Of a stretch of DNA of 64,000 nucleotides, positions 3,281-33,158 are shown in pieces (positions within the stretch are counted from its first letter, which is position 1; each line of letters begins with the position of its first letter). The translations under genes were made by a program, and so were the position numbers. Source of the stretch: Lachnospiraceae bacterium (GTDB taxonomy: Bacteria; Bacillota; Clostridia; Lachnospirales; Lachnospiraceae); NCBI GenBank assembly GCA_021203465.1, contig JAJQBC010000151.1, positions 1 through 64,000 on the forward strand, given 5' to 3'. The notes beneath the pieces were generated by a model that was given only the letters and a program-made list of their open reading frames with translations, was not told the origin of the DNA and searched no databases.

Positions 3281-3304
3281 TCCGTAAAGGAAGGACGATC
3301 TGGA

Positions 3305-10663: not shown

Positions 10664-10681
10664 CCATAGAAGGAGTAAGAT

Positions 10682-14404: not shown

Positions 14405-14500
14405 CGCGCCTACGACGAGAGTGCGCAGATCTGGTATGTCTATGTCTCGGAGTCCTTCCTCGAGCGCGGCAAGACCTACCGCTTCTATTATGACGCGCTG

Positions 14501-17500
14501 ATGTATTACAGCGACAGGACCTGGTCCTGGCCGGAAGAGTACTATGGTAACCAGTGGATCGCGAACGGCGCTTACACCAAGAATACGGCGCTCTCCTCGA
14601 CCTGGACCGCCTTCGAGAAGCAGACGCCCTCGGTGGAGCTCACGCTGCAGAGCAGCAACGAAGATGGCGACACCTGGCAGGTCTATCTAAACGACCCGGA
14701 CAGTGCGCTGGTGTCGCACACCCTGCTCGGCTACAACACCGAGAGCAAGGTGAACAGCAGTCCCATCTGGAGCGACAGCCTGCTCGGCGGCGTAGTGGAT
14801 GCCACCGGGGCTTCCGTGGGCACGCAGACGATCGGGTCGGCTGAGAAATACATCGAGATCACAGTTGAGGATACGGATACAAATACGGATACAACGCTCA
14901 GCTACATAGATTACAGCGATACAGTCACATATCCACATGAGTATGATAATGCCTACAGTAATAAATACTATGCCGTGGTAGAAGAAGTGACGGACAGCGC
15001 CACGGATAATGTCACGGCAAGCGATGACGAACTCGCTGCCATGAAGGCGATCGTCACGGCGCTGAAGGCCGCGGACGAGAGCGGCGGCACCGCCGGAGCG
15101 ACGGTCGTCTGCAGCAATATCGGCGTCGGCCAGTACTACAGCTGGCGCGCGGGCTGTCAGACGATCGACGACTACTATCCGTCGAGCTACCGCGCGACCG
15201 TGACCCTGCTCGGCCATCAGTACAGCGGGACGGGAACCATGACAGCCGGGAAGTGGTCCGGCAATGTGGAGGATGACGATACAGTAGCATTTGCGATCCA
15301 GAAACCGGAGCTCGACGACGATAACGATGTCGCGAAGATCTTTCTTCTGAGGGAGGACGGGACTTCATCGGCGGATTATATTGCGGCGATGCGGCGCATC
15401 GCGGCGGTGGAGATCGTCGTGAAAAATACAGCATATGCTACAAGTCCAGTTGATGATAACAAATATACCTTCTGGAGCGGCATGACCTACGGCCTCAACA
15501 CATCGGGTACCTACGGCTACTACTTCAGCTTCAGCATCAGCGACCTGCCCTCGGGCTTCTATACGGTGGGCGAATCGCTGACGCTGGAATATACCTTCTA
15601 TTACTACAACGGGGAGAGCAGCTTTGAGGTGGCGACGGATGGAGGTTATTACGCCCTGCGCTCCGTCACCTACCACAGCGACGGGGATTACTACGAGCAG
15701 CTGAAGAGCGCCTCTTCGACGGCGCAGCTCAACTACAGTACGAGCGCCTCCTCCTCGATCTACTGGTTTGCGGCGGGTTCGCGAGGGCTGTCGCGCAGCT
15801 ACGCGACCTCGAACAGCGGCGATGTCTATCTCACCGGCTTTACACAGTCCTGGACCCTGAGCGGCGCGCCGCTCGCGAGTTGGTACAGTGATGGAGAAGT
15901 GACACGGACGGAGGACTTAGGCTGGGGCGGCGCGGATTTAAGCGTCGGTTACGACGCGGGGCTTGTGACGGAGTTCTGCGTGCTCGCCACCTTTACGGCG
16001 ACGGGATCGGTCACGACCGGCACGCTCGCGCCGGTGCTCTCGTCGCTGCCGGTCGTCACGAGTGGCCTGACCGAGGCGAAGGTGACCGTAAAGATCGGCA
16101 ACTACGGCCTGATGGATTATCCGGATGGCGAGGACTTCCACCTCTATTACCTGCTCTATGAGGTGACGGATGAGACAGACAGCGACGGCATCGCGCTGCT
16201 CGAACTGAAGGGCGCGATGATCGGCGCTGCGATCGACGCCACCATGGACGGCTCCGATCCGACCCAGACGATCACGCTGACGGATCTCGAGCCGGATAAG
16301 ACCTACTACCTCTATATTTATTATAAAGACAACCGCGGCACGACGGAAGATACGAAGGCGACGGCGGACAGCACGCTTTTTGCTACCGCTTATCAAACTT
16401 ATGACTACACGGACGGCACCTTCACCACAGACGCGACCGTGGCGAAGCTGCTGGAGTCGACGATCATTGCAACGGCAAATTACCCGCGTTCGAACGACGC
16501 CTACAACTGCTTTACCAAGATTTCCGGACAGGGTACGCATCTCCTTACGAGTGCCTACACGGACACGGAAGGCACGGTACATGCGGCGACCTACGACTAC
16601 TACTGCATCATTGAGCCGCAGGATGGGATTGAGATTTCCAGCATGAAGTTCGACCTCGGGAACGACGATCCCTACTATAGCACGACAAATGGGGATGTGA
16701 GCGGAAAGACGCTGAGCTGCTCGGTGACGGTCAGCTACATGCAGGACGAGAACACGGTGGCCTACTTCATCCTCGAGCGCTGCGCGACGAATCTCAACCA
16801 GTCCCTGCCCTCGAACTGGAAGACGGTGCTGATGCCGGAGGACTATTACAGCATCGTGACGACGGCCGGTGCAGAATCCGTGTACTGTACGCCGGCTATC
16901 GAGACAAGTAATGTCCTGAACGCAGGGCACTACGAGTACTACGCGACCTATGAGAAGGACGGCATAACGCTCACCTCGGGCAGCGACTACCAGTATACGG
17001 CGCTGGCTGAGACGGAGACGGGCTCCGGCGTCTATACGGCCTCGATGAGCCTCACCTACTACCCGATGCTGGGCGGCGTGATCGAGCCGGGCTATGTCTA
17101 CCGCATGAAGGCGCTGGTCTACCAGCTGACCTACGACGGCGATGTTCTGAAGAGCGCGGAGCTTGTGAGCATAGACAGCACGGACAGCACGCAGTCCTAC
17201 AGCACGAGCCAGACGACCTGGAGCGCCTACAGCTACAGCTCCGACAATCCGCTCATCAACGTGACGAACCTCGACTGGTCGAGCAATACGATTACCTGCT
17301 ATATCAAGGCGCAGACCGGCTACTATACCTGGCTCGACCGCACGTACTATGTGAGATTGTGCGAGTGGGATACAACAAACAGCGAATGGGTAATTCTGGC
17401 GGATGAAGCTTCAAATGGCCAGGGCGGAACGATAAAATACGGCACAATCACCAGCGGAGGCACGGCAACGTCCATTTATGATTACGCCTTCGGCGTCGAG

Positions 17501-18196
17501 GATTCGTCGACGCAGCTGACCTTTGAGGGGCTCGCCTCGGATACAACCTACTCGATCCAGTTCTTCGGACTGATCGACACAGACTACGACGGCTATGTGA
17601 ACATTGCGTCTGATGGCACACCGCTCGCGGCGGAGTATACGACGACGCCGACTTTCGCGCTTCTGGAAGGCTGGTACCCGACGAGTGATAGCAGCCAGGA
17701 TTCCAAGTATGACGACGGCAGGAGCAGCAACCTCAGCACCCTGAATACATATTATTTCGGCGACGGTACCAATGCTGCAGAGGGCAACCTTTCCGACATC
17801 CTGCTCTGCCAGTCGAGATCGGTCACGACCATGAAAGCGGGCACGACCGCGACGATCGGCAGCTACTACGACTACAACGTGGTTTCCGCCACGCAGCTGG
17901 AACTTTACTTTGAGGACGCGGCGGGACTCGCGAGCACCTCGATCAGCCAGATCGAGTGGACGCTGCACTACGTGGGTATCACCGGCTCGCAGGAGGACCG
18001 CTCCGGCACGACGAGCTCAGTGAAGAACACCTACAGCTCGAGTACGACGCTCACGGACGACGTGACGGTCACGATCACCGACAGCGGCACGAATTTCCAG
18101 CAGAACGGGCACTGGTACTTTACATTGAAGATTACCTACGCGGACGACACGGAGGAGAGCGTTGACTCGTGGGAGATCGAATTCACGGAGTTTTGA
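14501..18196 (+). CDS. Giant surface protein B, C-terminal part after the in-frame amber stop
   Basis: Continuation in the same frame of the gene beginning at 10,682 (true continuation begins at 14,405; ATG 14,501 is merely the first Met codon). It consists of Fn3-like beta-sandwich modules colinear with the C-terminal half of giant protein A, including the calcium-loop-like DTDYDGYVN at nt 17,576-17,602, which matches DIDYDGYLN in protein A. It ends with an ordinary strand-rich tail and TGA. Rich in Tyr, Thr, Ser and Asp. No signal peptide of its own, so it could only reach the surface as part of the full-length product. Confidence 0.75.
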   Translation: MYYSDRTWSWPEEYYGNQWIANGAYTKNTALSSTWTAFEKQTPSVELTLQSSNEDGDTWQVYLNDPDSALVSHTLLGYNTESKVNSSPIWSDSLLGGVVDATGASVGTQTIGSAEKYIEITVEDTDTNTDTTLSYIDYSDTVTYPHEYDNAYSNKYYAVVEEVTDSATDNVTASDDELAAMKAIVTALKAADESGGTAGATVVCSNIGVGQYYSWRAGCQTIDDYYPSSYRATVTLLGHQYSGTGTMTAGKWSGNVEDDDTVAFAIQKPELDDDNDVAKIFLLREDGTSSADYIAAMRRIAAVEIVVKNTAYATSPVDDNKYTFWSGMTYGLNTSGTYGYYFSFSISDLPSGFYTVGESLTLEYTFYYYNGESSFEVATDGGYYALRSVTYHSDGDYYEQLKSASSTAQLNYSTSASSSIYWFAAGSRGLSRSYATSNSGDVYLTGFTQSWTLSGAPLASWYSDGEVTRTEDLGWGGADLSVGYDAGLVTEFCVLATFTATGSVTTGTLAPVLSSLPVVTSGLTEAKVTVKIGNYGLMDYPDGEDFHLYYLLYEVTDETDSDGIALLELKGAMIGAAIDATMDGSDPTQTITLTDLEPDKTYYLYIYYKDNRGTTEDTKATADSTLFATAYQTYDYTDGTFTTDATVAKLLESTIIATANYPRSNDAYNCFTKISGQGTHLLTSAYTDTEGTVHAATYDYYCIIEPQDGIEISSMKFDLGNDDPYYSTTNGDVSGKTLSCSVTVSYMQDENTVAYFILERCATNLNQSLPSNWKTVLMPEDYYSIVTTAGAESVYCTPAIETSNVLNAGHYEYYATYEKDGITLTSGSDYQYTALAETETGSGVYTASMSLTYYPMLGGVIEPGYVYRMKALVYQLTYDGDVLKSAELVSIDSTDSTQSYSTSQTTWSAYSYSSDNPLINVTNLDWSSNTITCYIKAQTGYYTWLDRTYYVRLCEWDTTNSEWVILADEASNGQGGTIKYGTITSGGTATSIYDYAFGVEDSSTQLTFEGLASDTTYSIQFFGLIDTDYDGYVNIASDGTPLAAEYTTTPTFALLEGWYPTSDSSQDSKYDDGRSSNLSTLNTYYFGDGTNAAEGNLSDILLCQSRSVTTMKAGTTATIGSYYDYNVVSATQLELYFEDAAGLASTSISQIEWTLHYVGITGSQEDRSGTTSSVKNTYSSSTTLTDDVTVTITDSGTNFQQNGHWYFTLKITYADDTEESVDSWEIEFTEF

Positions 18197-18272: not shown

Positions 18273-19886
18273 ATGAGACTACTGAGCGGTCAGGTAAAAC
18301 GATTGATCGCCGTCTTCGCGGTCCTCGCGCTCGGCTGTTTCTCGGTCGTCGGCGTGGCGGCGGCGCGCGTGATCGGCAGCCGCGGAGAGAGTGCCGGCGT
18401 ATCCGCGTCCAGCGTTGTCTACGACAATGCCTACAACGCTGTGGAGATGGATGCGGAGGGTGTCGTCAGCAAAAACTGGGACGGCTCCTACTATCTGAGC
18501 AGCGGCGGGACAAAATACAGTCTGGGGACGAGCAGTGTGATCTACGACAGCGCGAGCAACGAGGTGATGGTGCTCGGCGGCGGCTACCAGATCTACGAGG
18601 ACAGCAGTGTGCGCGTACTTGACGACTTTGCGACGCTCTCCTGCGCGGGCACGAATTACGTCAAAATGTCCGACAAGGAATATCTGATCACTGGCGGCAA
18701 TATCACGGACGACGGAGGTTACGTCTCGACGACAGACTACCTCTATATGACGCTGGACAGTTCGAACAATACGCGCCTGCTGAGCGCGGATGTCAATGTG
18801 AAGATCGTCGGCACCGTCACTATCAGCAGCGACGCGGGGATCAGCTTTGACGTCGCGGATGCGACGGTCTCCTTCGGCGACAGCCTGATCAGCGTCGCGA
18901 ATGCGATCAGCAGCTACGCGAACGCGAGCTCGTCTGACAGCACGACCGTCTCAGCCTCCGAGAACGGCGTCTACGATATCACGATCTACGGCGGCAACGG
19001 CGGCGCAGGCGGCGATGGCGGCAGCGGCGGAACCGGCGGCACGGGCGGCACAGGCGGCACAGGCGGCACAGGCGGCACGGGCGGCAATGGCGGCGCGGGC
19101 GGAACCGGCGGCAGCGGCGGAACCGGCGGAGACGGCGGCACGGGCGGCGCGGGCGGCAACGGGCTTTCGGCCAGCAGCGTGTCGGTCTCGACGTCCTCCT
19201 CCTACATGTACCTGCGCAGCATCGAGGCGACGACCTACGGCGTCACAGTGAATTACCTCGTCGTCGACGGCGCGGCGGAGTACGAGGTGCCGACGGTGAT
19301 CGCCTATCCCTACGGCGGGTTCACCGATGCGGCCGCGGCATACGAGGATTATAAGACGAACGGCAGCGACAGCACCGCGAAGGCGATGGTCGTCTCCGAG
19401 GACAATACCGTGGCGGAGCTCACGGGCCTGACCTACGGCACGCGCTACATGCTCGCGATCGGAAACGCGAGCTCGGACGGCAGCTTCACGCTCTGCGACT
19501 CGATGTCCTTCACGACCGAGGACCTGACGACGACGCTGCAGGTGAGTTCGGTGAACAACAGCTCCCTCGTCGTGAGCGCCACGATCACGAGCGGCTTCGA
19601 GCCGGCCAGCGGCTACAGCTTCTATATCGCGGTCTGGGACAGTGATACCAGCGCGGAAGCCTGCCTTGTGACGCTGTCGACCACCGAGGTGAGCGCACTC
19701 AAGTCGAGCTCCGGCCTGACGAAGACCCTGACGCTGGACTATACGCTGACAACACTTGCGAGCAGCACCAGCACACTGCGCGTCGTGCTCTGCTACGGTA
19801 CGGATCCGAGTTACACAAACGCGTCAACAGACCAGAAGTCCTACCAGCTGGTGTCGATCAGTTCTTTCAAGACGAGCAGCAACTGA
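18273..19886 (+). CDS. Membrane-anchored surface protein with GGX glycine stalk
   Basis: Smallest of the upstream surface proteins (537 aa). The N-terminal anchor (about residues 12-33) lacks a lipobox. The ectodomain (about 40-235) resembles the membrane-proximal domain of the family in strand pattern, with a VRVLDDFATL segment. It is followed by a glycine-rich stretch of GG-X triplets (240-297) in place of the acidic collagen-like repeat, then two Fn3-like domains to the C-terminus. The start has a strong AGGAGG site. It is the last surface gene before the ATPase genes, 121 bp upstream of the c-like subunit. Shorter length and a different stalk suggest a distinct structural role, such as a basal or capping element, but this is inference. 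Confidence 0.82.
   Translation: MRLLSGQVKRLIAVFAVLALGCFSVVGVAAARVIGSRGESAGVSASSVVYDNAYNAVEMDAEGVVSKNWDGSYYLSSGGTKYSLGTSSVIYDSASNEVMVLGGGYQIYEDSSVRVLDDFATLSCAGTNYVKMSDKEYLITGGNITDDGGYVSTTDYLYMTLDSSNNTRLLSADVNVKIVGTVTISSDAGISFDVADATVSFGDSLISVANAISSYANASSSDSTTVSASENGVYDITIYGGNGGAGGDGGSGGTGGTGGTGGTGGTGGTGGNGGAGGTGGSGGTGGDGGTGGAGGNGLSASSVSVSTSSSYMYLRSIEATTYGVTVNYLVVDGAAEYEVPTVIAYPYGGFTDAAAAYEDYKTNGSDSTAKAMVVSEDNTVAELTGLTYGTRYMLAIGNASSDGSFTLCDSMSFTTEDLTTTLQVSSVNNSSLVVSATITSGFEPASGYSFYIAVWDSDTSAEACLVTLSTTEVSALKSSSGLTKTLTLDYTLTTLASSTSTLRVVLCYGTDPSYTNASTDQKSYQLVSISSFKTSSN
18990..19163 (+). repeat. GGX glycine repeat with 9-bp DNA periodicity
   Basis: Encodes GG-X triplets (X = N, A, D, S or T). At the DNA level several consecutive 9-bp units GGCGGCACA or GGCGGCACG are nearly identical. 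Units are multiples of three, so slippage would change stalk length without breaking the frame. Confidence 0.9.
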
Positions 19887-19971: not shown

Positions 19972-20253
<282 letters not shown>

Positions 20254-20279: not shown

Positions 20280-21065
20280 ATGTGGTTACTGTTTTTTGTG
20301 GTAGTGCTGGTAATCTGCGCGCTGATGGTCTTCCTCCTGCTTGCGATCCGGCTTCTGACCGCGCAGGCGAAGGATCAGCTGAACCGCTATTTCCTGAAGA
20401 ATCTCGAGACCTATGACCGCCTCGCGCAGAATAAGAGCGAGACGATCGACGAGCTGCAGAGGCAGGCTGATGAGCTCGAGACGCGGATCGGGACTATGCA
20501 GGCGCATATGGATGCGATGGCTGAGATGGACAGGAGCCGCGCGTCCGCGCGTCCGGCGAGCGGCCCTGTGGCGGCCCCGATGGCTTCCGGAGCCTCCTAC
20601 CGTGACGCAGATTTCCTCAAGGACTACGCCTATGTGCGCCGGAACATGAAGCTGAACTGGAAGGAGCGCGTGCGGGAGTTGCTCGCGGAGCTGAAGGATC
20701 AGCCGGATCCGCAGCTTGCGCTTTACCGCGGGATGCTCGAAAAGCTTCCGCAGGAGCGGCTTTACGATATGCTGACGCTCTCGGACGGGGATCAGGAGGC
20801 GCTGCTTCAGGAGCTCTTTGATGAGCGTGAGCGCGAGGCCCTTGCAGAGTGGGCTGCGGAGCGGGGAGGCTTTGACCTGCTGGCGCTGCGCACTTTCCTT
20901 TCCGACTATGTGCGGGCGCACGAGGACCGTGTCTACATCCGCACGGGCAATCCGGAGGAGGTAGAGGGGCTTGAGAGTGAGCGCGTGCACGTGCTCTACG
21001 ATCCCGCCGTCCACGAGGGCGTGCGCGTCTCGTATAAGAATTTAGTGTATGATTTTGGACTGTAG
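20280..21065 (+). CDS. b-delta-like fusion stator subunit
   Basis: 261 aa occupying the b/delta position of an atp operon. Residues 2-24 are a single membrane helix. Residues about 30-85 are a charged coiled coil, as in subunit b. An Ala/Pro/Ser-rich linker (about 88-108) leads to a helical domain and a strand-rich end (YDPAVHEGVRVSYKNL) that resembles the C-terminus of delta/OSCP-type subunits, where a Gly-Gly-x-x-x strand closes the protein. I read it as a peripheral stalk fusing b and delta, a layout known from mycobacteria with a different arrangement. It ends in TAG immediately before the alpha gene, 9 bp away. Sequence similarity is weak, so the fusion is inferred from layout and topology. 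Confidence 0.7.
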   Translation: MWLLFFVVVLVICALMVFLLLAIRLLTAQAKDQLNRYFLKNLETYDRLAQNKSETIDELQRQADELETRIGTMQAHMDAMAEMDRSRASARPASGPVAAPMASGASYRDADFLKDYAYVRRNMKLNWKERVRELLAELKDQPDPQLALYRGMLEKLPQERLYDMLTLSDGDQEALLQELFDEREREALAEWAAERGGFDLLALRTFLSDYVRAHEDRVYIRTGNPEEVEGLESERVHVLYDPAVHEGVRVSYKNLVYDFGL

Positions 21066-21074
21066 GAGAAATAA

Positions 21075-22400
21075 ATGGCAAATTACGTAGAAGAACTGGT
21101 GGCAAATAAACTGAATGAGATCAAGTCGCGCACGAACGAGTACGAGGTCGGCCATGTCGTCTCGGTGCGCGAGTACATCCTCGAGGTCAGCGGTCTCGAG
21201 GGAGCGGCCTTCCACGAGCGCGTGCTCGTCGCGGGCCATTCGGAGGGCTATATCATCGGCATCCGGCGCAGCTCCGTGATGGTCGCGCTCATCAAGAGGC
21301 GCGGCGACGTCTATGTCGGCGACGAGGTAACCGCGACGGGCAGGGAGTTCTGCCTTGCCTACGACGAACAGGCCTTTGGCCACGTCGTCAACATGAACGG
21401 TGAGGATGTGCTGACGGGCAAGATGTTCGAGCACACCGAGGAGATGCGCATCGAGAACCCGACGACGCCGATCATGGACCGCACGAGCGTGAACCGTCCG
21501 CTGGAGACCGGCCTCTCCGGCATCGACCTCATCTACCCGATCGGCCGCGGCCAGCGCCAGCTGATCATCGGCGATAAGAAGACGGGCAAGACGCAGATCG
21601 CGCTTGACGCCATCCTCAACCAGAAGGACAAGGATGTGCTCTGCATCTACATCGCGATCGGCAAGATGAAGAAGAATGTCAAGGAGGTCTACTCTGAGCT
21701 GCAGAGAAAGGGCGCGATGAAGTACACGCTGATTCTGGCGGCGCTGAACGACGACCTGCCGCCGGTGCTCTCGCTGACCCCCTATGCGGGCCTGGCGATC
21801 GCCGAGAAATATATGCTGCAGGGTCGCGACGTGCTGGTCGTGATCGACGACCTCTCACGCCATGCGGACTGCTACCGCGAGATCAGCCTTCTGACCGGCA
21901 AGGTACCGGGCCGTGACGCCTACCCGCCGGACATTTTCTATACGCACTCGCGGCTGCTCGAGAAGGGCTGCCAGCACAAGTGCGGCGGTTCGATCACGAT
22001 CCTGCCGATCGTCGAGACGAGGGGCGGCGACATCACCGACTACATTTCGACGAACATTATCTCCATCACCGACGGGCAGATCGTGCTCTCGAAGAAGAGC
22101 TTCGACCGCGGTGAGAAGCCGGCCATCAACTACGGCCTCTCTGTATCCCGCCTCGGCGGCGCAGTGCAGACCGGTCCGATGAAGAAGCTGGGCGCGCGTG
22201 TGCGCCGGGAGCTTTTGAGCTACCTCGAGACGCGCGAAGTCTATGAGCTGGCGAATGTGGATGAGATGGGCAAGGAGCTGCAGGACCGCTTAAAGCGTGG
22301 CGCGAAGCTCTTAAAGGGCCTGGGGCAGTACAAGTACAGCCCGCTTTCGCAGGAAGAGATTATTAAGAAATTCGAAGACATTTACGGGGAAGAAGCATGA
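21075..22400 (+). CDS. atpA: F1-like ATPase alpha subunit (divergent paralogue)
   Basis: 441 aa, clearly an alpha-type F1 subunit: Walker A GDKKTGKT at 166-173, the PGRDAYPPD loop, SITILPIVET, and the arginine-finger segment SVSRLGG with R359. The N-terminal helix that binds delta is present but short. The C-terminal helical domain is clipped compared with the usual 500-515 aa. In normal synthases alpha is regulatory and supplies the arginine finger to the catalytic beta site. It sits between the b-delta fusion and gamma and overlaps gamma by 4 nt (ATGA). The order alpha-gamma-beta is that of ordinary atp operons. The surroundings (giant surface proteins, no a subunit) show this is not the housekeeping copy. 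Confidence 0.95.
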   Translation: MANYVEELVANKLNEIKSRTNEYEVGHVVSVREYILEVSGLEGAAFHERVLVAGHSEGYIIGIRRSSVMVALIKRRGDVYVGDEVTATGREFCLAYDEQAFGHVVNMNGEDVLTGKMFEHTEEMRIENPTTPIMDRTSVNRPLETGLSGIDLIYPIGRGQRQLIIGDKKTGKTQIALDAILNQKDKDVLCIYIAIGKMKKNVKEVYSELQRKGAMKYTLILAALNDDLPPVLSLTPYAGLAIAEKYMLQGRDVLVVIDDLSRHADCYREISLLTGKVPGRDAYPPDIFYTHSRLLEKGCQHKCGGSITILPIVETRGGDITDYISTNIISITDGQIVLSKKSFDRGEKPAINYGLSVSRLGGAVQTGPMKKLGARVRRELLSYLETREVYELANVDEMGKELQDRLKRGAKLLKGLGQYKYSPLSQEEIIKKFEDIYGEEA

Positions 22401-23173
22401 AGGTAAAAAATGTCGTCAAGGTCATGAATTTCCACGCGCTGATCCGCGTGGACGCGGCCAAGAGAAAGGCGAAACGCTATCAGCTGATGGAGCGCGAGGT
22501 CATGTCCATGCTCGACCAGATCATGAACAACCGCAACCTCATGCTCGACAAGAACATCCTCACGCCGAACCCGGACAAGCCGACGCTGACGGTCTATCTG
22601 GGCTCGGATTACGGCTTCTGCAGCAATTACAACTCCCTCGTGAACGGGGAGATCGACCACAACCCGGGCGGCGACAAGATTCTGATCGGCAAGAAGCTGC
22701 GGCATAACGCGCAGGGCGTGCTGCTGCGCATGGATCAGGACGAGATGGAGAGCCGCGAGCGCGAGATCGAGGAAATCTTAAAGACGAGTATCTTAAGAAG
22801 GCAGCACAGTGCCATCGACGTCGTCTTCGTCCGCTACGTCAACGCGGCGGAGTGCGTGAAGGATAAGCACCGCATCTATCCGATCGAGATTCCGAAGGAC
22901 TCCGCCCCGGAGGATTACCGGGACGACTTCATGATTGAGGGAGAAATCGAGTCCCTTTTGATGAACCTGCTGGCGACCTACCTCATCTATGAGATCCAGA
23001 TCATCCGCACCTCGGGCTACGCCTCGGAGAACATCCTGCGGCAGAACACGACGAGCGAATCCTTAAAGAAGATCGAGGAGATCGAGGAGGAGCAGCGGAT
23101 GGAGGAGCGGCGCGAGAAGCGGACCAAAGAATTCTCGAAAGTAATCGAAAATTATCAGAAAAAGGCGTATTGA
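22397..23173 (+). CDS. atpG: F1-like ATPase gamma subunit
   Basis: 258 aa, the central-shaft subunit. The conserved landmark GFCSNYNS (GLCGGYN in standard gamma) is present near residue 72. The N-terminal and C-terminal helices that form the coiled-coil shaft are recognisable, the last 45 residues being a highly charged helix rich in Glu, Arg and Lys. It is about 30 residues shorter than usual. Translationally coupled to alpha through ATGA and followed by beta after 12 nt. A retained gamma shaft argues that the complex still rotates. Confidence 0.92.
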   Translation: MKVKNVVKVMNFHALIRVDAAKRKAKRYQLMEREVMSMLDQIMNNRNLMLDKNILTPNPDKPTLTVYLGSDYGFCSNYNSLVNGEIDHNPGGDKILIGKKLRHNAQGVLLRMDQDEMESREREIEEILKTSILRRQHSAIDVVFVRYVNAAECVKDKHRIYPIEIPKDSAPEDYRDDFMIEGEIESLLMNLLATYLIYEIQIIRTSGYASENILRQNTTSESLKKIEEIEEEQRMEERREKRTKEFSKVIENYQKKAY

Positions 23174-24595
<1,422 letters not shown>

Positions 24596-24601
24596 AGAGG
24601 G

Positions 24602-24937
24602 ATGGCGAATACGACGGAGAACCCGCGGGAGAACCGCGGAAAGATGACGGCGCGGGTGGTCGGCCTCGACTCCGGTATGCAGGAGTATACGGGGGTCAGC
24701 ATCATCCGCATCAAAAGCCGTTACTACAACCTCCTGATCATGGAGGACTATATGCCGAGCATCGGCGAGATCGAGGGCGAGGTCACGATCGTGTCCGACA
24801 CGGAGTCGGTGAAGCTTGAAAACATCCGCGCCTTCTACCTGCACAAGAAAAATGTGTTCCGCATCATGATCCGGGACCAAAAAGAGGAAGCAACGCAAAA
24901 AGAAGGAACCCAAAAAGAGGAAGCAAATGTACCGTAG
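24602..24937 (+). CDS. Epsilon-like subunit
   Basis: 111-aa protein in the atpC position directly after beta. The central 70 residues have the strand pattern of the epsilon N-terminal beta-sandwich, including an IGEIEGEV segment where normal epsilon has a G-x-x-P-G turn. The usual two-helix inhibitory C-terminus is missing; instead there is a short Lys/Glu/Gln-rich tail. It could bind the gamma/c-ring interface without inhibiting ATP hydrolysis, which would suit a dedicated ATPase motor. Assignment depends on gene order plus fold pattern. Overlaps the next gene by 11 nt. Confidence 0.6.
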   Translation: MANTTENPRENRGKMTARVVGLDSGMQEYTGVSIIRIKSRYYNLLIMEDYMPSIGEIEGEVTIVSDTESVKLENIRAFYLHKKNVFRIMIRDQKEEATQKEGTQKEEANVP

Positions 24938-25724
24938 ATTTCTGTACTACATCCTGCAATTTGAATATCTGGCGCTCTTCACGGCGGTGAGCCTGATCAT
25001 CGTGACGGCGGTGCTGCTCGTGCAGATGAGGGGCTTCCAGTGGTCGAGCCGGCGGCGGCTGATGATCATCACGCTGTTTTTCAACATGCCGCCGCGCTAT
25101 ATGGTTTACCTCGCGGCGAACTATATCCAGCTGATGTTCGTGCTCTCGCAGCTTGTGACCCTGCAGGATATCGAGCTGGCGCACCTGGTATTTCTGGTGC
25201 TGCTCGGGCTCATACAGGCGCTCGCGATCATGGATCCGGCGGAGAGCGTCCGCTCTTTCCTGGGCAGCGTGCTGCTCTACGCGGCTTTCCTGATTGTGGA
25301 CCTTCTGAAGACCTACATTTTTGATCTGCGCTTTGACTGGCGGATCGCCTTTGTCTGCTTCCTGCTCTGCGCGTTTCTGGTGCTGTATTCGGTGTATTTC
25401 TTCATCAACAGCCTGAAATGCCTGGCCTCGCGGCACCTGCGGGTCGCCTCGGCTCCGCCGCGTGTGCGGAAGGAGAGGAAACCACGGCGCGTTCACCGGA
25501 CCCCGGTCGAGGAGGCCGGCGTGATCGATCTGGACATTGTGGAGCTGGACGCGCTGGATGATATACCGGAGACAACGGAAGTGCTGAAAGCGGCGGAAAC
25601 AGGCGCAGCAGAAGCGCCGGAAGTGCAGGCGGCGCCGGAGGCGGATATGCCGGAAACGGCTGAACAGGAAATAGAGGAAGTGGAGCCGCTGAAAGCAGAG
25701 AAAGCGGACACCACGGAGGAGTGA
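24927..25724 (+). CDS. Five-helix membrane protein in place of the a subunit
   Basis: 265 aa, no recognised family. About five membrane helices (roughly 8-33, 46-72, 83-101, 110-129, 137-161) are followed by a basic stretch (RVRKERKPRRVHR) and a long Glu/Ala/Pro-rich acidic tail (about 195-265). Positive residues place the C-terminus inside and the N-terminus outside, the same topology as subunit a of F-type ATPases. The conserved a-subunit helix with its essential arginine motif is not visible. Given its position after epsilon and the absence of atpB in the cluster, it may be the membrane stator of this machine or an adaptor to the surface proteins. Coupled to the epsilon-like gene by overlap. 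Confidence 0.75.
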   Translation: MYRRFLYYILQFEYLALFTAVSLIIVTAVLLVQMRGFQWSSRRRLMIITLFFNMPPRYMVYLAANYIQLMFVLSQLVTLQDIELAHLVFLVLLGLIQALAIMDPAESVRSFLGSVLLYAAFLIVDLLKTYIFDLRFDWRIAFVCFLLCAFLVLYSVYFFINSLKCLASRHLRVASAPPRVRKERKPRRVHRTPVEEAGVIDLDIVELDALDDIPETTEVLKAAETGAAEAPEVQAAPEADMPETAEQEIEEVEPLKAEKADTTEE

Positions 25725-25725
25725 C

Positions 25726-26472
25726 ATGAAAAAACCGAGCATCGATTTTACGGAACTGAAAAAGAGACGGCGGGAGATCATCGTCCCGCTCGCGCTGATG
25801 GCGGGGCTGCTGGTCGCGATCTTTATCGTCGTGCAGTTTCTGGGCAGGGCGGAGCGCGTGACGATCGACGAGACGCTCTACCAGTATATCTTCGAGACCG
25901 CCGATGTCTATTCGGACGGCGTGACGATGAAGAAGGACGAGGATTCGGTGCTCATAGACTATGGCCATCAGACGGTGACCTCGAGCGGTTATCCGCTCTA
26001 CTTCCAGGGGCAGGATAAGCTCATCCTGACGGAGAGCTTCCTCTACCTGCAGCGGGACGGCAATACCGGCGGCAAGGTCTCCTATTTTACGGAGATCACG
26101 GCTCTGGGGAATGAGACATTCCAGCTGGACGACGGCGCGAACACCACGCTGAAGGGCGGCATGCTGCACAACGGCGGGGACGTCTTTATCTTCCTCGAGC
26201 CCGCCACAGTGGAATACAATGGCAAGACAAAGGAAATCGCGGAGTTTTCCTACGTCGTCTGTTTTCAGGGGCAGAGCATCCTGATCTGGTCCTACGGCGA
26301 TGAGGAGGCGGTTCTCGAGGATCTCGACGGCTCGGGGGCATCCGTGATGATGGAAAACGGAATCGAAGTCGATGTTGCGAACGACGTTTACTATAGAGCG
26401 AACGGGACGAAGTATCTGCTCTTCACAGACCCGGATATCTTCGACCCGGTGAGCACGGCACAGGAGGAGTGA
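25726..26472 (+). CDS. Single-pass protein carrying only the shared membrane-proximal domain
   Basis: 248 aa. A basic cytoplasmic N-terminus (KKRRR), one membrane helix (about 18-40), and a beta-rich ectodomain of about 200 residues. The ectodomain follows the same order of segments as the membrane-proximal domain of the giant surface proteins, with a short block (PLYFQGQDKLILTESFLYL) comparable to PVWSNGGQSLYFLDD in the next gene and ending in a strand with D-x-A-x-x-x-Y-Y. It therefore looks like the anchor module without stalk and repeats, perhaps a core subunit of an extracellular ring. GGAGG site overlaps the end of the 5-TM gene. Function unknown. Confidence 0.75.
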   Translation: MKKPSIDFTELKKRRREIIVPLALMAGLLVAIFIVVQFLGRAERVTIDETLYQYIFETADVYSDGVTMKKDEDSVLIDYGHQTVTSSGYPLYFQGQDKLILTESFLYLQRDGNTGGKVSYFTEITALGNETFQLDDGANTTLKGGMLHNGGDVFIFLEPATVEYNGKTKEIAEFSYVVCFQGQSILIWSYGDEEAVLEDLDGSGASVMMENGIEVDVANDVYYRANGTKYLLFTDPDIFDPVSTAQEE

Positions 26473-26474
26473 AT

Positions 26475-29400
26475 ATGGGAAAGATAAGGCCTGAAAAAGA
26501 AAAGAAAGAGAGAAAGAAGAAAGCGGTGGCAGCGACGGCGACGGCGACGCGCTTTTCTTTCAAAACCGTGGCGGACCTGCGGCTTCTCCTTGCCGTGGCG
26601 CTCGTGGTGCTGGCGGCGATGGGCATCTTCGCCTGGGCCTTCCGCCAGATTCACATCGGCTATGTCGAGGAGGACGGCTGGGTGGTCAGCTCCTCCGAGG
26701 TCTACAACAGCCTGAATTCCGGCGCGGAGGAGGGGACGAAGATCCTGCTCACCTCTGTGAAGAGCAACGACGAGGTCATCTCACGCGCGGGCAGCTACTA
26801 CGTCGGCGCGGACATGACCGAGTATGAGTCGGCCTATCCCGTCTGGTCGAACGGCGGGCAGAGCCTCTACTTCCTCGACGACAGCGCCTCGCTCGTCACC
26901 GAGGAGTTTGAGCTGCTCTCGACCTGGGGCGGCATGTACGTGGCGGACGGCAGCTCCTTCAATGAACTGCACGAGCAGGTCGACGAAGAGACGATCTATC
27001 TCGTGAAACTGAAAAACGGACTTTACCAGAACGCGCTCGCGATCCGCTTTGCCTCCTCGAATTATGAGCAGACGATGCAGATCTATTCGGCCGCGTCTTT
27101 TTCAGATTCTTATGTGCGCTGGTTCTCGCAGAGCAGCGGCGAGCTGAGCTACCATGAGATCAGCGACCCTTCCGACCTGACGGTCTATATCGGCGATGCG
27201 AGCTACAGCTACGCGGAGTTCCTCGAGCTGCTGCGGGGCGCGGGCAAGACTCAGACGGCCTCCGACGACGAGCAGGCGACCGGCTCGATCACCGGTCCGG
27301 ACGCGGAGGAAGCCGAGCAGGAGACGATCACCGGCACCGACACGGGTGAGACCGTGAAGACAAAGAACCAGAAGGGCGACAGCGGCGACAAGGGCACGGC
27401 GGACAAGGAGAGCTCCGTGACAGCGGACGCCACAGAAGGCACGGCGGAAGGCGCATCCGGCGCGGCAGCCGCGTCCTCCTCCTCCGGCGGCAGCACCTCC
27501 GGCAGCGGTTCGGGCGGCGGCGAGGCGGAGAGCTCCGCGGAGGCTTCCGGCGCGCGCAGCAGCGCGGCAAGCACCTCGGGCGAGACCGCGGATGCGGACT
27601 GGCTGGCGCCGGACGTACAGCTCGTGATCACGCGCATCGGTGCTTACGATGTGGAGTTTGAGGTCTACATCACCGATGAGAGCGGCGTGCTGCGGAAGGC
27701 GACGATCAACGCGAACTGGACGGGCACGAACGGCGAGAGCAACGTCCGTAAATCTGTGCGCGAGGACGGTACTTACACCATCTCCAATCTCGAGACCGGC
27801 AAGACGGTCACGCTGACCGTGACCGCAAAGTACCGCAACAGCGCGGGCGACTACGTCGAGGATGTCTGTGCCACGCTGACCTTCACGACGCTCACGATCG
27901 CGGCGGGCACGAATACGCTCTATATCGACTATACGGCGGATCAGGAGACCCGCGACGAGACAGTGTATAACAAGGAAACCGGAGAATACGAGTATCCGGG
28001 TTACGACGAAATCTACGCGACCCAGATCGAGATTCAGGATCTGCGTGTCTACGAGGGCAGCGACGGGCAGATGGCGGAGGACGCGTCCACGATGGACTAT
28101 GTCCGCTACTTCTACGTGCGCGTCTATGCGCGCGACGGTAATACGGCGGGCGATACGCCGGTGCAGTCCTACCTCCTGAGTTCCTCCGAGCGCACGCGCG
28201 TGATGAGCGAGGGTATCGACTGGCTCTCCGACTCCCTCTCGGCGCTCTATACAAGCACGGATTACCGTTATGAGTTCGAGCTGCTCGACCGCTACGGCGA
28301 GTCGATGAAGGTCGGCTACGGCACGGTCAGCGACGATGGGACGGTCACGAAGAATACCAGCCGCTATGCCTCCAACGGGACGACTGCGCTCACGTATCAG
28401 GACGAGAGCTGTGACCGCAACGCCTACACCTGCGCGGCGGATCCGAGCGGGAAGCTGACGCTCGGCACCTCGACCTATGACAGCCAGACCATCGCGGTGA
28501 AATTTACGAACGCGGCTTCGGACAGCTCCTCCAGTCAGGATGAGGGCGGCGCTACGATCAGCGAGCTCTATCTCGTCGAGAATGAGACTGCTTACGGCCG
28601 CTTCATCCTCTGGAACACGGACGGCGACGACATCACGGGTGAGATCGGCACCGCGGAGCTCACCGACAGCACATATGCGCGCTACAGCCTGCTGGCGAAA
28701 GCCACGACGGAGCCCTATGTGAACAGCGAGGGCGAGACCGTCACGGATGACTACGAAGCCTATCCCGGTGTAACCGTGGACGGCGTGACCGAAAACAATG
28801 TCGGTACCTACGACAATGGGACGGAGTTCACCTGGACGAAGATGAAGATCCCGGCCTTCGCGGGCTCCACCTACACGATCAAGCTCTACGCCTCCTACGA
28901 CACGGGCAACCGCGAGGGCACGCAGTACGGACAGCTGCTCGCGACGCGCAGCAACGCCCGCACGGCTTCCCTGAGCACGCTCGGCAGCGTGAGCTTCACG
29001 CGGCAGAATCTGGACGCGGACGACGAGAGCGCGACCTTCAGTTACACCTCCAGCCTGCCCTCCACGAGCCTGCAGCCGCTGCTCTACAAGTATGAGTATG
29101 ATCTCACGGACGAAGACGACAATACGGTCTTTACGCTGCTCATCTCGAAGGACTACGAGGAGATCTCCTCCTCGCAGCAGGGCATCTGGCTGACAGCCGG
29201 AAGCTACTCGGTCGAGGCCGCAGACTGGACGCTGAATTACAGCTTCCCCTACACGCAGACGCTGGGCACGACGACGAGCTCGCATGTCGTGAGCAGCACG
29301 ATCAGCTACGCAGACGGTGTCTTCACGCGCACAGTGTATGTGGACGGCGAGGATCGAAGCTATACCTTTACCTACCCCGCCTCGGGAACGATTGACACGA

Positions 29401-30653
29401 CAAACGATGATGCGAACGAACTGATTCTGGCGCAGCTGATGGAGATCCTGGAGGAGCTGGATAGCTACAGTACCGTCGTCGACACGAGTCAGGAGTCGTC
29501 GACCACCGGCATCACCGACGGCACCGCCACGGTCTCCCTGAGCTTCAAGAAGATCACAGATGACAACGATTCGACCCGCGTGCTCTTCGACGCGGACGAG
29601 GATTACAGCTTCTCGCTCACGGCTTCGGAGCTCCTCGCGGCCTGCACGGACGTTCAGGCAGACACGGACACCGCGGCCTCGGAGAAGACCTGGGGCTACA
29701 CCTGGCTCTACGCGCTGAGCGCGGAGCGCGCGCAGCTCTCCCTCACGGTGGGGAACCTCGCGAGCTCCTCGACCTACACGGCCTCGGCCTGCGCCTATGC
29801 CTGGCAGACGGGCAACTATACCTATACGGACGATGAGAGCAGCGACGCCGAGCCGGCGCTCGTGGCGGTGACGACGACGGATGCGAGCCTCACGGTGATG
29901 ACCACGAAGGCGGAGCCGGAGGTCTACATGGACGTCTTCGCGACATCCTCGGAGATCACGCTCTACGGCTTCTATGTCTACGACCCCGACGAGGCGATCA
30001 TCGCGAAGCGCAGCGGCCTCGTGCCGACGGTGACGGTCAGCGTCTACCTCGTGGATGACTCTGGAAATGAGACTCTCGTGGCGCAGGAGACGGTGACGGA
30101 TATCGCGACGACGGAAGAGGAGACCGAGAGCTATGCGCAGGATCTCAGCTTCGGCGGCCTTGTCTCCGGCGCGACCTACTATATCAGGGTGACGGCTGAC
30201 GCCCTCGACCTGACGGCGGACGGAAGCAATACGCAGTACAACTATCTGATTGGCGAGGATGAGACGAATTCGAAGTACGTGAGCGCCGGTACCTGGGCGA
30301 CCACGCTCGGCGCGGACGCGGAGACCGGGCTCTTCCTCGAACGCGTGGAGGAGAGCGACCCCTATACCCTCGAGGGCCAGCTCATCGACTACACGACGGC
30401 GGACGCCCAGATCGCGGCGGGCACGGAGGGCGGCTGGGAGGTCGGCTATCTCACGACCAGCGGTACGCTGAGCGCGAGCACCAGCTACCGTACGACGCCC
30501 TATATCGATCTGCGCGCACGCGATGAGAACGGCAATGTGGATACCACCTATGAGCTGAGCGAGTCGGACATCTTCCTCGGGCGGAATATCTACTATATTA
30601 TCGCGCTTTATGATGAAAGCTACAACTATCTGGGCTACGCGCGCTCTCTCTGA
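26475..30653 (+). CDS. Colossal surface protein, N-terminal part up to an in-frame opal stop
   Basis: First segment of a reading frame open from 26,475 to 41,723 apart from two stops (about 5,080 codons). It starts with a Lys/Glu-rich cytoplasmic stretch, an N-terminal membrane helix (about residues 36-58), the family EEDGW segment and a membrane-proximal domain related to that of the 248-aa protein. A Ser/Gly/Ala/Glu low-complexity linker (about residues 255-375) replaces the collagen-like stalk, followed by Fn3-like domains. I chose ATG 26,475 rather than GTG 26,469 because AGGAGG lies 7 nt before it. It ends at TGA 30,651, after which the same frame continues with coding-like sequence. Inferred to be the largest filament or adhesin of the system. 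Confidence 0.85.
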   Translation: MGKIRPEKEKKERKKKAVAATATATRFSFKTVADLRLLLAVALVVLAAMGIFAWAFRQIHIGYVEEDGWVVSSSEVYNSLNSGAEEGTKILLTSVKSNDEVISRAGSYYVGADMTEYESAYPVWSNGGQSLYFLDDSASLVTEEFELLSTWGGMYVADGSSFNELHEQVDEETIYLVKLKNGLYQNALAIRFASSNYEQTMQIYSAASFSDSYVRWFSQSSGELSYHEISDPSDLTVYIGDASYSYAEFLELLRGAGKTQTASDDEQATGSITGPDAEEAEQETITGTDTGETVKTKNQKGDSGDKGTADKESSVTADATEGTAEGASGAAAASSSSGGSTSGSGSGGGEAESSAEASGARSSAASTSGETADADWLAPDVQLVITRIGAYDVEFEVYITDESGVLRKATINANWTGTNGESNVRKSVREDGTYTISNLETGKTVTLTVTAKYRNSAGDYVEDVCATLTFTTLTIAAGTNTLYIDYTADQETRDETVYNKETGEYEYPGYDEIYATQIEIQDLRVYEGSDGQMAEDASTMDYVRYFYVRVYARDGNTAGDTPVQSYLLSSSERTRVMSEGIDWLSDSLSALYTSTDYRYEFELLDRYGESMKVGYGTVSDDGTVTKNTSRYASNGTTALTYQDESCDRNAYTCAADPSGKLTLGTSTYDSQTIAVKFTNAASDSSSSQDEGGATISELYLVENETAYGRFILWNTDGDDITGEIGTAELTDSTYARYSLLAKATTEPYVNSEGETVTDDYEAYPGVTVDGVTENNVGTYDNGTEFTWTKMKIPAFAGSTYTIKLYASYDTGNREGTQYGQLLATRSNARTASLSTLGSVSFTRQNLDADDESATFSYTSSLPSTSLQPLLYKYEYDLTDEDDNTVFTLLISKDYEEISSSQQGIWLTAGSYSVEAADWTLNYSFPYTQTLGTTTSSHVVSSTISYADGVFTRTVYVDGEDRSYTFTYPASGTIDTTNDDANELILAQLMEILEELDSYSTVVDTSQESSTTGITDGTATVSLSFKKITDDNDSTRVLFDADEDYSFSLTASELLAACTDVQADTDTAASEKTWGYTWLYALSAERAQLSLTVGNLASSSTYTASACAYAWQTGNYTYTDDESSDAEPALVAVTTTDASLTVMTTKAEPEVYMDVFATSSEITLYGFYVYDPDEAIIAKRSGLVPTVTVSVYLVDDSGNETLVAQETVTDIATTEEETESYAQDLSFGGLVSGATYYIRVTADALDLTADGSNTQYNYLIGEDETNSKYVSAGTWATTLGADAETGLFLERVEESDPYTLEGQLIDYTTADAQIAAGTEGGWEVGYLTTSGTLSASTSYRTTPYIDLRARDENGNVDTTYELSESDIFLGRNIYYIIALYDESYNYLGYARSL
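30651..30653 (+). other. In-frame TGA interrupting the colossal gene
   Basis: The frame is open on both sides of this TGA, and the 108 nt between it and the GTG at 30,762 contain no other stop. One base change from TGG (Trp) or CGA (Arg) would remove it. Confidence 0.95.
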
Positions 30654-30761
30654 AGCAGCAGCACTAACAGCACCTCCTATACGACGCAGATCTTCCGCCT
30701 CTCGGGCGGACCGCTCATCAGTGGCTCGTCCTTCGAGCTCTCCAAGGTCGTCTACGCCCGC

Positions 30762-33092
30762 GTGAGTATCTATAATACCTATGCGAATGAGGCGTATTTT
30801 GGCAGGCTGGACGAGGACTACTTCACGACCACGAAGGCGGCGGACGCCGAAAGTGCAAAGCTCGGAGACGACTATACGGATGTCTACGGGCAGGTGCTGA
30901 ACAGCGAGGATCAGTGGAGCGAGTATATAACGGTCGGGACGACGGAAACAGATGCCGACAGTTATTATGACGTAAATATTCCGGTCTCGGACAGCAATAT
31001 CGTCATGCTCACGGGCAAGAGCGGCACGAGCTCGATCATCCGCGGTGTGAAGTTCTATGATAGCAGCGGAGTGATCGGCTCTACCATGGGCATGACGGGC
31101 GCCCTGCTCGTCGTACCGTCGGGGACGACGTACATGAAGCTGGAATACAAGTCGTCCGACAGCTCCGCGGTCGGCCTCGGCCTCTACATTCTGAATGACG
31201 GCGGCGATATCGCCGATGCCTATAAGGCGCAGATGGGGAGCATGACCGCTACGAGCGGTAAGAGCCTGAGCACCAGCAGCGGCAACAATACCACGAGCTC
31301 CAGCTCACTGATCGAGGTCACCGATAGCTATATCGAGGTAGAGCCGGGCGATCTTCTGATGATCTCGAACCAGGCGCAGGTTATCGCGCTCTACGACAAA
31401 GATGAGAACTTCGTCAGCTATACGCAGGGCATGTCGAGCGGTTACAACTATCTCATCGTGCCGGATGGCGTATACAAGATCCGTTTTGCCAACAGCATCT
31501 ACAGCACAAGCGCGAACTGGGACATCGCAGACGGCTATAAGATCCTCTTCCTGAACTGCGGGAGCGTCAAGAAGGTTTACGAGAGTAAACTTACGGCGGA
31601 TGGGTCGGCGGTCTACAAGAGCTCCGCTCAGCTCTACGCGAACCTGCGCATCCATATCAGTGATCCGAGCGGCACGGAGAGCTCGAACTTCGCGGGCTAT
31701 GGAGATACGAGCAGCCAGTTCTGGCTGCGGGTTTACAGCGCCGCCTATGACTCCTCGGCGACGGACGACGAGGTGAGCGACGAGACGCTGGAGGCGGGCG
31801 GCTATACGGACTACGCGTTGACCGACATCACGCTTGTAAACAGCCTCGCGAGCGTCAACCTCTGCCGCTTCGTCCCGGTGGCGAAGAGCATGAGCTACCG
31901 CGTGGAGCTCTGGGCGACGAAGGGCAGCTCGCTGCAGAACGTACAGCTCGGCAAGGCTTACTTTACGGTGGACAGCTCCGGCACGCCGGTCTTCGGCCTC
32001 AGCAGCGAGGCGCAGATCTCGAGTCTGCGCAGCAGCACGGAGAGCTTCGTGCTGACGCAGGATGTCTGCTTTACGGACAATACCAATCTTAACGGCGGCA
32101 CCTTCTACGGGACGCTCGACCTTCAGGGGAACACGCTTACGACCTCGAAGGGCGGGGTATACCTGTTCGAAAATATCGGTTCCGCCGCGAAGCGGACGAC
32201 GGTCATAAAGAACGGTACGATCGCGGTCGACTATGAGCGCACAGAGGGCACGATTGCCCGGATCACCTATCAGTGCTACGGTACGATTAAGAACGTGCTG
32301 TTCAGCATCGACGCGGCGAATCCGATCTTGAGTGGCTCGGGCAGCACGGCGGTCTACGATAACAGCATGTGGACCTCGGAATACAATACCTATTTCATTA
32401 CCCTTAACTACGGTACGATCCGCAACTTTGCGGTCGAGTACGTGTCGGATCTGGTGAGCTGCTGGTACGCGGGGCTGATCTACAGCAACAGTGGGACGAT
32501 CGAGAACGGCTACCTCTACGGCGACGGTTGCGTGCGCGGCGGTTCCTATGTGGGCGGCCTGGTGACGGTCAACAATGCAGCCGGTACGGTGCGCGGGATC
32601 TACAGCACGATCGACGCGAAGGCGAATACGACAACGGCCGGCTCGAACAACCTGAGCAGCAGCAGTAATATCAAGACGGTGGCTTACCTCGGCACGGTGA
32701 TCGGCGTCAACAACGGCACGGCGGACGGCATCCTCGCGACCGGAGACGTCTATACCTATACGACGAGCCGTTCCGGCTCGAACTACCTCTTCTCCGATGA
32801 GGAGGTCTATACGAACTATGGATGCGCGGTCGGCAGGACCGGCTCGAAGAAGGCCACGACGAACGTGTACTACGCGACGGTCGGCTCAGGAGAGCGCAAC
32901 AACTACTCCTCCAGTTCCTACAACGAGCGCGTGGAGGCGGGCCTTCTGGCGGATTCCGAGTGGTGGCTTGAGCTCTGGGAGAGCGTGAGCGCCTTCGGCC
33001 TCGATGAGGATGAGATCGACAGCCTGCTGGAGCTCGGCTGGTACCCCTGGATCAGCATGGGCGTGGCGGCGGACAAGTACAGCATCCTGTAG
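30762..33092 (+). CDS. Colossal surface protein, middle part between two in-frame stops
   Basis: Same frame as 26,475 and 33,159; GTG 30,762 is just the first start-like codon and lacks a ribosome site. Two tandem beta-sandwich modules are visible (each with a FYDSSG or LYDKDEN loop followed by a VPSG or VPDG strand), a pattern common in secreted carbohydrate-binding or phage-tail-like domains. Another beta domain follows, then the start of a beta-helix (repeated short strands ending in Asn/Gly turns), including a first GLUG-like SYVGGLV motif near nt 32,550. Ends at TAG 33,090. No export signal of its own. Confidence 0.75.
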   Translation: MSIYNTYANEAYFGRLDEDYFTTTKAADAESAKLGDDYTDVYGQVLNSEDQWSEYITVGTTETDADSYYDVNIPVSDSNIVMLTGKSGTSSIIRGVKFYDSSGVIGSTMGMTGALLVVPSGTTYMKLEYKSSDSSAVGLGLYILNDGGDIADAYKAQMGSMTATSGKSLSTSSGNNTTSSSSLIEVTDSYIEVEPGDLLMISNQAQVIALYDKDENFVSYTQGMSSGYNYLIVPDGVYKIRFANSIYSTSANWDIADGYKILFLNCGSVKKVYESKLTADGSAVYKSSAQLYANLRIHISDPSGTESSNFAGYGDTSSQFWLRVYSAAYDSSATDDEVSDETLEAGGYTDYALTDITLVNSLASVNLCRFVPVAKSMSYRVELWATKGSSLQNVQLGKAYFTVDSSGTPVFGLSSEAQISSLRSSTESFVLTQDVCFTDNTNLNGGTFYGTLDLQGNTLTTSKGGVYLFENIGSAAKRTTVIKNGTIAVDYERTEGTIARITYQCYGTIKNVLFSIDAANPILSGSGSTAVYDNSMWTSEYNTYFITLNYGTIRNFAVEYVSDLVSCWYAGLIYSNSGTIENGYLYGDGCVRGGSYVGGLVTVNNAAGTVRGIYSTIDAKANTTTAGSNNLSSSSNIKTVAYLGTVIGVNNGTADGILATGDVYTYTTSRSGSNYLFSDEEVYTNYGCAVGRTGSKKATTNVYYATVGSGERNNYSSSSYNERVEAGLLADSEWWLELWESVSAFGLDEDEIDSLLELGWYPWISMGVAADKYSIL
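33090..33092 (+). other. In-frame TAG interrupting the colossal gene
   Basis: The frame is open on both sides, with no other stop in the 66 nt before ATG 33,159. Context ATC CTG TAG CCC TAT is compatible with an original CAG (Gln). Confidence 0.95.
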
Positions 33093-33158
33093 CCCTATCT
33101 CGAGCTCGACATTGCCTCCTCGGCGAGCTTTGACCTCGTCAAGGCGGAGCTGGACTAT

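Follow-up and report, generated by a model that had tools for sequence, protein, structure and literature searches.

Gene content of the locus and its spread

The stretch of DNA analysed here (the window, 64,000 nucleotides of a Lachnospiraceae genome) carries a compact run of genes, all on the forward strand, from which an F-type ATPase module flanked by surface proteins can be deduced. On its 5' side lie a giant surface protein with a weak fibronectin type III (Fn3) match (S1 position, 14501..18196) and a membrane-anchored surface protein immediately 5' of the c gene (S2, 18273..19886). These are followed by genes for a c-like rotor subunit of 81 aa (20008..20253; PF00137, 8.5e-8), a b-like protein with a single N-terminal membrane helix, a coiled coil and a delta-like C-terminal part (20280..21065), an alpha subunit identified by family and motif match (21075..22400), a short and divergent gamma subunit (22397..23173; PF00231, 3.6e-19), a beta subunit (23186..24595; PF00006, 6.8e-65) and an epsilon-like protein of 111 aa (24602..24937). 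The module closes with a five-helix membrane protein of 265 aa (TM5, 24927..25724) and a signal-anchor protein with a beta-rich extracytoplasmic domain (X1, 25726..26472), the latter overlapped by a further giant surface protein directly 3' of it that is specific to this locus type (26469..30653). Giant secreted proteins of 776–2854 aa extend in a run on both sides of the module (767–18196 and 26469–41723), several of which give weak matches of collagen-like or Fn3 type; the protein at 33159–41723, last of the run, has a membrane helix followed by a basic tail at its end. The source genome bears a second copy of the module, with gamma 88% and TM5 about 75% identical, as well as, on another contig, an ordinary ATP synthase whose subunit a is normal.

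Searching genome contigs of 84,980 species (one genome per species) with a gamma alignment as query retrieved 135 relatives, and 80 loci were kept. The carriers belong to Lachnospiraceae, Oscillospiraceae, Peptococcaceae, Bacilli, Erysipelotrichaceae and Coriobacteriales and include Bifidobacterium colobi. Annotation of the module genes by iterated HMMs revealed nearly throughout, in about 80 genomes, the order giant surface protein, anchored surface protein, c, b-delta, alpha, gamma, beta, epsilon-like protein, TM5 and X1. Judged from these sequences, this is the usual F-type order with TM5 standing last in place of subunit a. Among the 72 loci with room after epsilon, the next gene encodes TM5 in 60 and a TM5-X1 fusion in 11, and one locus has neither. 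In 67 of 71 loci the gene 5' of c is of the S2 type, its product having an N-terminal membrane helix in nearly all cases, and in 63 of those 67 it is directly preceded by another gene, mostly encoding about 1,600–2,000 aa; weak Fn3 matches recur among the surface proteins of the module. Rearrangements occur as well. In three loci (L105, L108 and L110) gamma has moved to a position after TM5, giving c-b-alpha-beta-epsilon-TM5-gamma in an otherwise unchanged module, and in a variant represented by L034/L043, L037/L045 and L038/L044 a protein of about 770–2,220 aa directly follows TM5, with c (in L038 also X1) further downstream where seen. In the gamma tree, Coriobacteriales and one Bifidobacterium are interleaved with Bacillota, amounting to five changes of phylum label where two would be the least possible, several of these labels being taken from the titles of metagenome-assembled genomes, and this interleaving suggests some horizontal spread of the module. 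The gamma search gave no match in phages and plasmids.

Catalytic head, stalk and c ring

The catalytic motifs are intact: all 84 beta sequences have Walker A and the GER-RE motif, and 76 of 78 alpha sequences have the arginine finger motif; the alpha subunit of the window possesses both Walker A and the arginine finger. Among NCBIfam models, the beta subunit of the window scores 453 bits with canonical beta versus 382 and 375 bits with the mycoplasma models. In some Bacilli alpha reaches 845–1090 aa (L092, 6727–9999; L080, 7327–9999; L081, 3938–6889; L112, 7462–9999), the nucleotide-binding domain of the L092 protein extending to residue 368 and being followed by about 700 aa without Pfam match, and the beta subunit of L116 (681 aa) carries an additional C-terminal stretch. 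Concerning the stalk, the C-terminal part of the b-like protein aligns with canonical delta (hhalign E 1e-6, probability 91%) and ends in a conserved D-P...G...D pattern, which identifies the protein as a fusion of b and delta. The epsilon-like protein aligns with epsilon along its full length but weakly (hhalign probability 4%), and its assignment rests mostly on operon position.

The c subunit retains an invariant GRNPETK loop in the alignment of 79 sequences, and the c gene product of the window matches PF00137 over the cut-off despite a second helix without carboxylate. In none of the 79 sequences is the ion-binding carboxylate kept: position 60, which is the carboxylate position as counted 17 residues past the Glu of the QPE/NPE loop, is occupied by T, A, V, S or M; the ordinary c subunit of the source genome has Glu there. 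Moreover, helix 2 as a whole (positions 51–76, n=79) shows no conserved charged residue, with charged or N/Q types appearing only at position 59 in four sequences. Hence, a ring formed by this subunit would be devoid of a known ion site and, as the catalytic motifs are intact, ATP hydrolysis is to be expected but not ion-driven synthesis. Going by its sequences, the module can hydrolyse ATP, but ion movement by the known route is not to be expected of it.

TM5 and its relation to subunit a

The TM5 reading frame starts within the 3' end of the epsilon-like gene and stops just before the X1 gene. Compared with the paralogue in the second module copy, differences at codon positions 1, 2 and 3 number 29, 16 and 59, respectively, and this dominance of third-position changes identifies TM5 as a real gene despite a long antisense reading frame at the same place; about 70 homologues are present at the same operon position. 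An AF2 model (pLDDT 80, core helices mostly >90) places membrane helices at residues 13–35, 56–78, 84–100, 104–133 and 138–175, and shows a short N-terminal helix, a short surface helix at 42–52 and a disordered tail (about 176–265). Across 59 homologues, basic residues are grouped behind helices 1 and 5 and in the loop joining helices 3 and 4, and acidic residues in the remaining loops, which indicates that the N-terminus lies outside and the C-terminus inside. In 11 loci TM5 and X1 form a single protein of about 400 aa, the N-terminal half of which corresponds to TM5 (probability 98.8%) and the C-terminal half to X1 (100%), with negative cross-comparisons. These natural fusions fit an inside location of the TM5 C-terminus, X1 itself having one N-terminal membrane anchor ahead of its beta-rich outer domain. 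The fusion was modelled at a pLDDT of 92, and PDB searches with this model returned nothing informative on the X1 domain; in one fused clade, helix 1 of TM5 is apparently lost. The five-helix N-out/C-in topology proposed in a preliminary description of this DNA is consequently borne out by the model, the loop charges and the fusions.

Also the lack of the a-subunit arginine, stated there for the window protein, extends to the whole family, with Arg found in at most 5 of the 59 homologues at any position of helix 4; but most homologues have a basic residue at position 68 of helix 2 (R/K in 47 of 59, Q in the window copy), which is not the helix bearing the arginine of subunit a. An acidic residue at position 133, at the end of helix 4, accompanies it in 42 of the 47 sequences with R/K68 versus 2 of the 12 without, a co-occurrence with a Fisher p of 3e-6 in a statistic that ignores the kinship of the sequences. 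Both residues are absent or altered in a minority that includes the clade of the window. The Glu/Ala/Pro-rich tail is real (26 D/E, 11 K/R) but not conserved. Most of the 70 TM5 sequences listed have no more than 212 aa, the paralogue and the nearest relative end about 55–60 residues before the window copy, and where other copies have a long tail, its composition is different. The long acidic stretch belongs to the window copy alone and not to the family as a whole; with close relatives doing without it, it can be discarded as an essential force-transmitting part.

When searched against Pfam, NCBIfam and PHROGs, the window protein had no family match; 59 TM5 members searched against Pfam and NCBIfam gave only isolated single-member matches, and a sequence-profile search of the PDB gave one chance match (E 4.5). 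Membership in a transporter, enzyme or phage family, the first two of which would have spoken against the preliminary description, can thus be dismissed. Subunit a has five membrane helices in N-out/C-in orientation and a surface helix after helix 1. TM5 shares this topology including the surface helix after helix 1, its model resembles F1Fo subunit a (AtpB, PF00119) in having short middle helices and two long last ones, and it is encoded together with c, b, delta, alpha, gamma, beta and epsilon, thereby completing an F-type set. In contrast to subunit a, TM5 lacks detectable sequence similarity and a conserved Arg in the fourth membrane helix, its gene stands last instead of first, and some species have it joined with an extracytoplasmic domain. 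The remote homology comparison proposed earlier detected no relationship (hhalign probability <1% against 30 subunit a sequences) and PF00119 did not match any of 59 TM5 members; with both the profile and the arginine test failed, TM5 is not assigned to this family.

A Foldseek search with the TM5 model returned as top match 9jc2_B (E 0.46), an engineered ATP synthase chain taken as subunit a from entry title, length and alignment, and Bacillus PS3 subunit a at rank 9, all E-values being >0.4. With VIA, among the matches listed, seven of the eight with at least 140 aligned residues are subunit a with Z between 7.7 and 9.6 (9jc2_B at 9.6; 7njk_a, 8j0s_a and 6n2d_a at about 8), values below the level trusted for helical bundles, and most other listed matches are soluble helical bundles aligned to helices 2–5 only. 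Helical bundles can attain model-based scores of this size by chance, and homology is not proven by them. A subunit a overlooked in the module can be discounted, as the subunit-a HMM matched neither in the window nor in the 80 module loci; normal subunit a genes are located elsewhere in the genomes tested. Chakrabartyella piscis (L090, CP092441.1) carries both on one chromosome, with about 20 kb separating the ordinary subunit a gene from the ion-dead module. From the gene content, subunit a is the sole F-type subunit missing from the module. That TM5 occupies the role of this missing subunit, as had been suggested, is favored by operon position, absence of a, topology and likeness of the models, and is weakened by the lack of sequence homology and the chance-range scores. 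Likewise, the earlier idea of a remodelled stator is reasonable as to a mechanical role, given the loss of ion coupling in the c ring, but its descent has no sequence signal. TM5 probably fulfils the task of subunit a, from which it may have descended.

Proposed function and comparison with known rotary ATPases

That the machine delivers its output outside the cell is suggested by the TM5-X1 fusion, the fixed gene order and the giant surface proteins constantly encoded nearby. We regard it as somewhat probable that TM5 acts as membrane stator in a rotary machine which hydrolyses ATP, derives from an F-type ATPase and works without ion coupling. In such a machine, TM5 would take the place of subunit a against an assembled c ring, the single-helix b-delta protein would keep the alpha3beta3 head fixed, and gamma, epsilon and the c ring would be turned by ATP hydrolysis against the stator made up of b-delta and TM5. 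As c and TM5 are both without charged residues for ion transfer, the work would not be spent on pumping and might instead be passed across the membrane to X1, held on TM5, and to S2 and the giant S1; adhesins, for example, might be moved, cocked or released in this way. The predicted rotation step follows from the conserved F-type subunits, while we infer that motion reaches X1, S2 and S1. Most likely, the machine burns ATP to turn or move large surface proteins rather than to make ATP.

A competing explanation, which we consider unlikely albeit deserving serious attention, holds that TM5 is an unrelated adaptor by which X1 and the surface proteins are anchored next to a stator-less rotor driven by F1, its likeness to subunit a merely reflecting a common five-helix arrangement. 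The TM5-X1 fusions are readily compatible with such an adaptor, as are the absence of sequence homology to subunit a and structural scores within the chance range for helical proteins. However, the b-delta stalk is still present and requires a partner in the membrane, the module lacks no part other than subunit a, and near-full-length structural matches of TM5 are almost all subunit a. Much less probable is a variant ion-motive ATPase employing another route, e.g., via the basic residue 68 and acidic residues of TM5. The combination of R/K68 in 47 of 59 homologues with D/E133 in 42 of those 47, counted irrespective of kinship, would suit such a route, yet helix 2 of c (51–76, n=79) offers no charged and almost no other polar residue, and TM5 of the window even lacks R/K68. 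Still less weight goes to TM5 being no structural subunit but an AtpI-like helper in assembly by which the c ring is loaded. It is indeed a small multi-helix membrane protein encoded in an ATPase operon, and AtpI genes are likewise situated in atp operons, but the five helices of TM5 and, in some species, its fusion with an extracytoplasmic domain speak against this reading; furthermore, PF03899 (AtpI) matched none of 59 TM5 members and hhalign against 23 AtpI-like sequences remained blank (probability about 1%), by which TM5 as AtpI itself is rejected.

To our knowledge, rotary ATPases are understood as ion-coupled, the known exceptions being the mycoplasma motors, whose membrane parts are unexplained. 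The module described here has a recognisable c subunit, a b-delta protein and a candidate stator and occurs in walled bacteria, some of them cultured, such as Bifidobacterium colobi LC6, Lachnospiraceae bacterium G11 and Chakrabartyella piscis, and by keeping these parts it makes an F-type motor doing ion-free mechanical work across the membrane amenable to testing, which bears on the long-standing question of how such work can be done. With the stator reading of TM5, the findings suggest a widespread surface machine in gut bacteria. Searches of open-licence papers led to the mycoplasma systems and to no description of this operon. The N-ATPases (alternate F1F0, atpQ/atpR operon) are similar in representing a second F-type operon beside the ordinary one; in contrast to the module, they keep subunit a and an ion-binding c, and the module proteins stay well below the alternate-F1F0 cut-offs (beta 401.6 versus 752 bits, alpha 372 versus 750.5 bits).

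The nearest known systems are the F1-like X0 ATPases of mycoplasmas. Their F1-like X0 ATPase is needed for MIB-MIP (PMC12994834), is encoded with surface proteins and has been proposed to act mechanically on them (PMC3369863, PMC12994834). The Type 3 system (MSC_0618-0624; MMCAP2_0575-0581) resembles the module in being F1-like, in missing a canonical Fo and in its linked surface proteins. It differs in gene order (12-TM protein, small protein, gamma, epsilon, 2-TM protein, alpha, beta) and in having neither c nor a b homologue, whereas the module keeps c and a membrane-anchored b-delta and has TM5 and X1 instead of the 12-TM and 2-TM proteins as membrane parts. The scores differ as well: beta and alpha of the module reach 382 and 306 bits versus NCBIfam cut-offs of 570 (MSC_0618) and 520 (MSC_0619), respectively; the MSC_0618 model itself gave no hit over the cut-off in 398 genomes of the mycoplasma phylum. 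For an action on surface proteins without ion transport, as ascribed to the Type 2 and Type 3 systems, the module offers genetic linkage to surface genes. The Type 2 G1-ATPase of Mycoplasma mobile is likewise an F1-derived motor, but operates in a wall-less cell, forms dimeric chains, has no membrane peripheral stalk and possesses an alpha subunit without stalk-binding helix. G1-ATPase drives mycoplasma gliding, and a b-delta fusion has been proposed as the origin of the GliD protein of this motor (PMC11864180). As the b protein of the module is apparently such a fusion as well, the module becomes a candidate intermediate. Tentatively, it might represent a widespread motor family of walled gut bacteria in which an entire F1Fo machine, with loss of both the c carboxylate and the a-arginine, has been uncoupled from ions and given a rebuilt stator linked with a stalk at the surface, ATP turning or pulling giant extracellular proteins through the membrane, and possibly stand between ATP synthase and the gliding and antibody-shedding motors of mycoplasmas.
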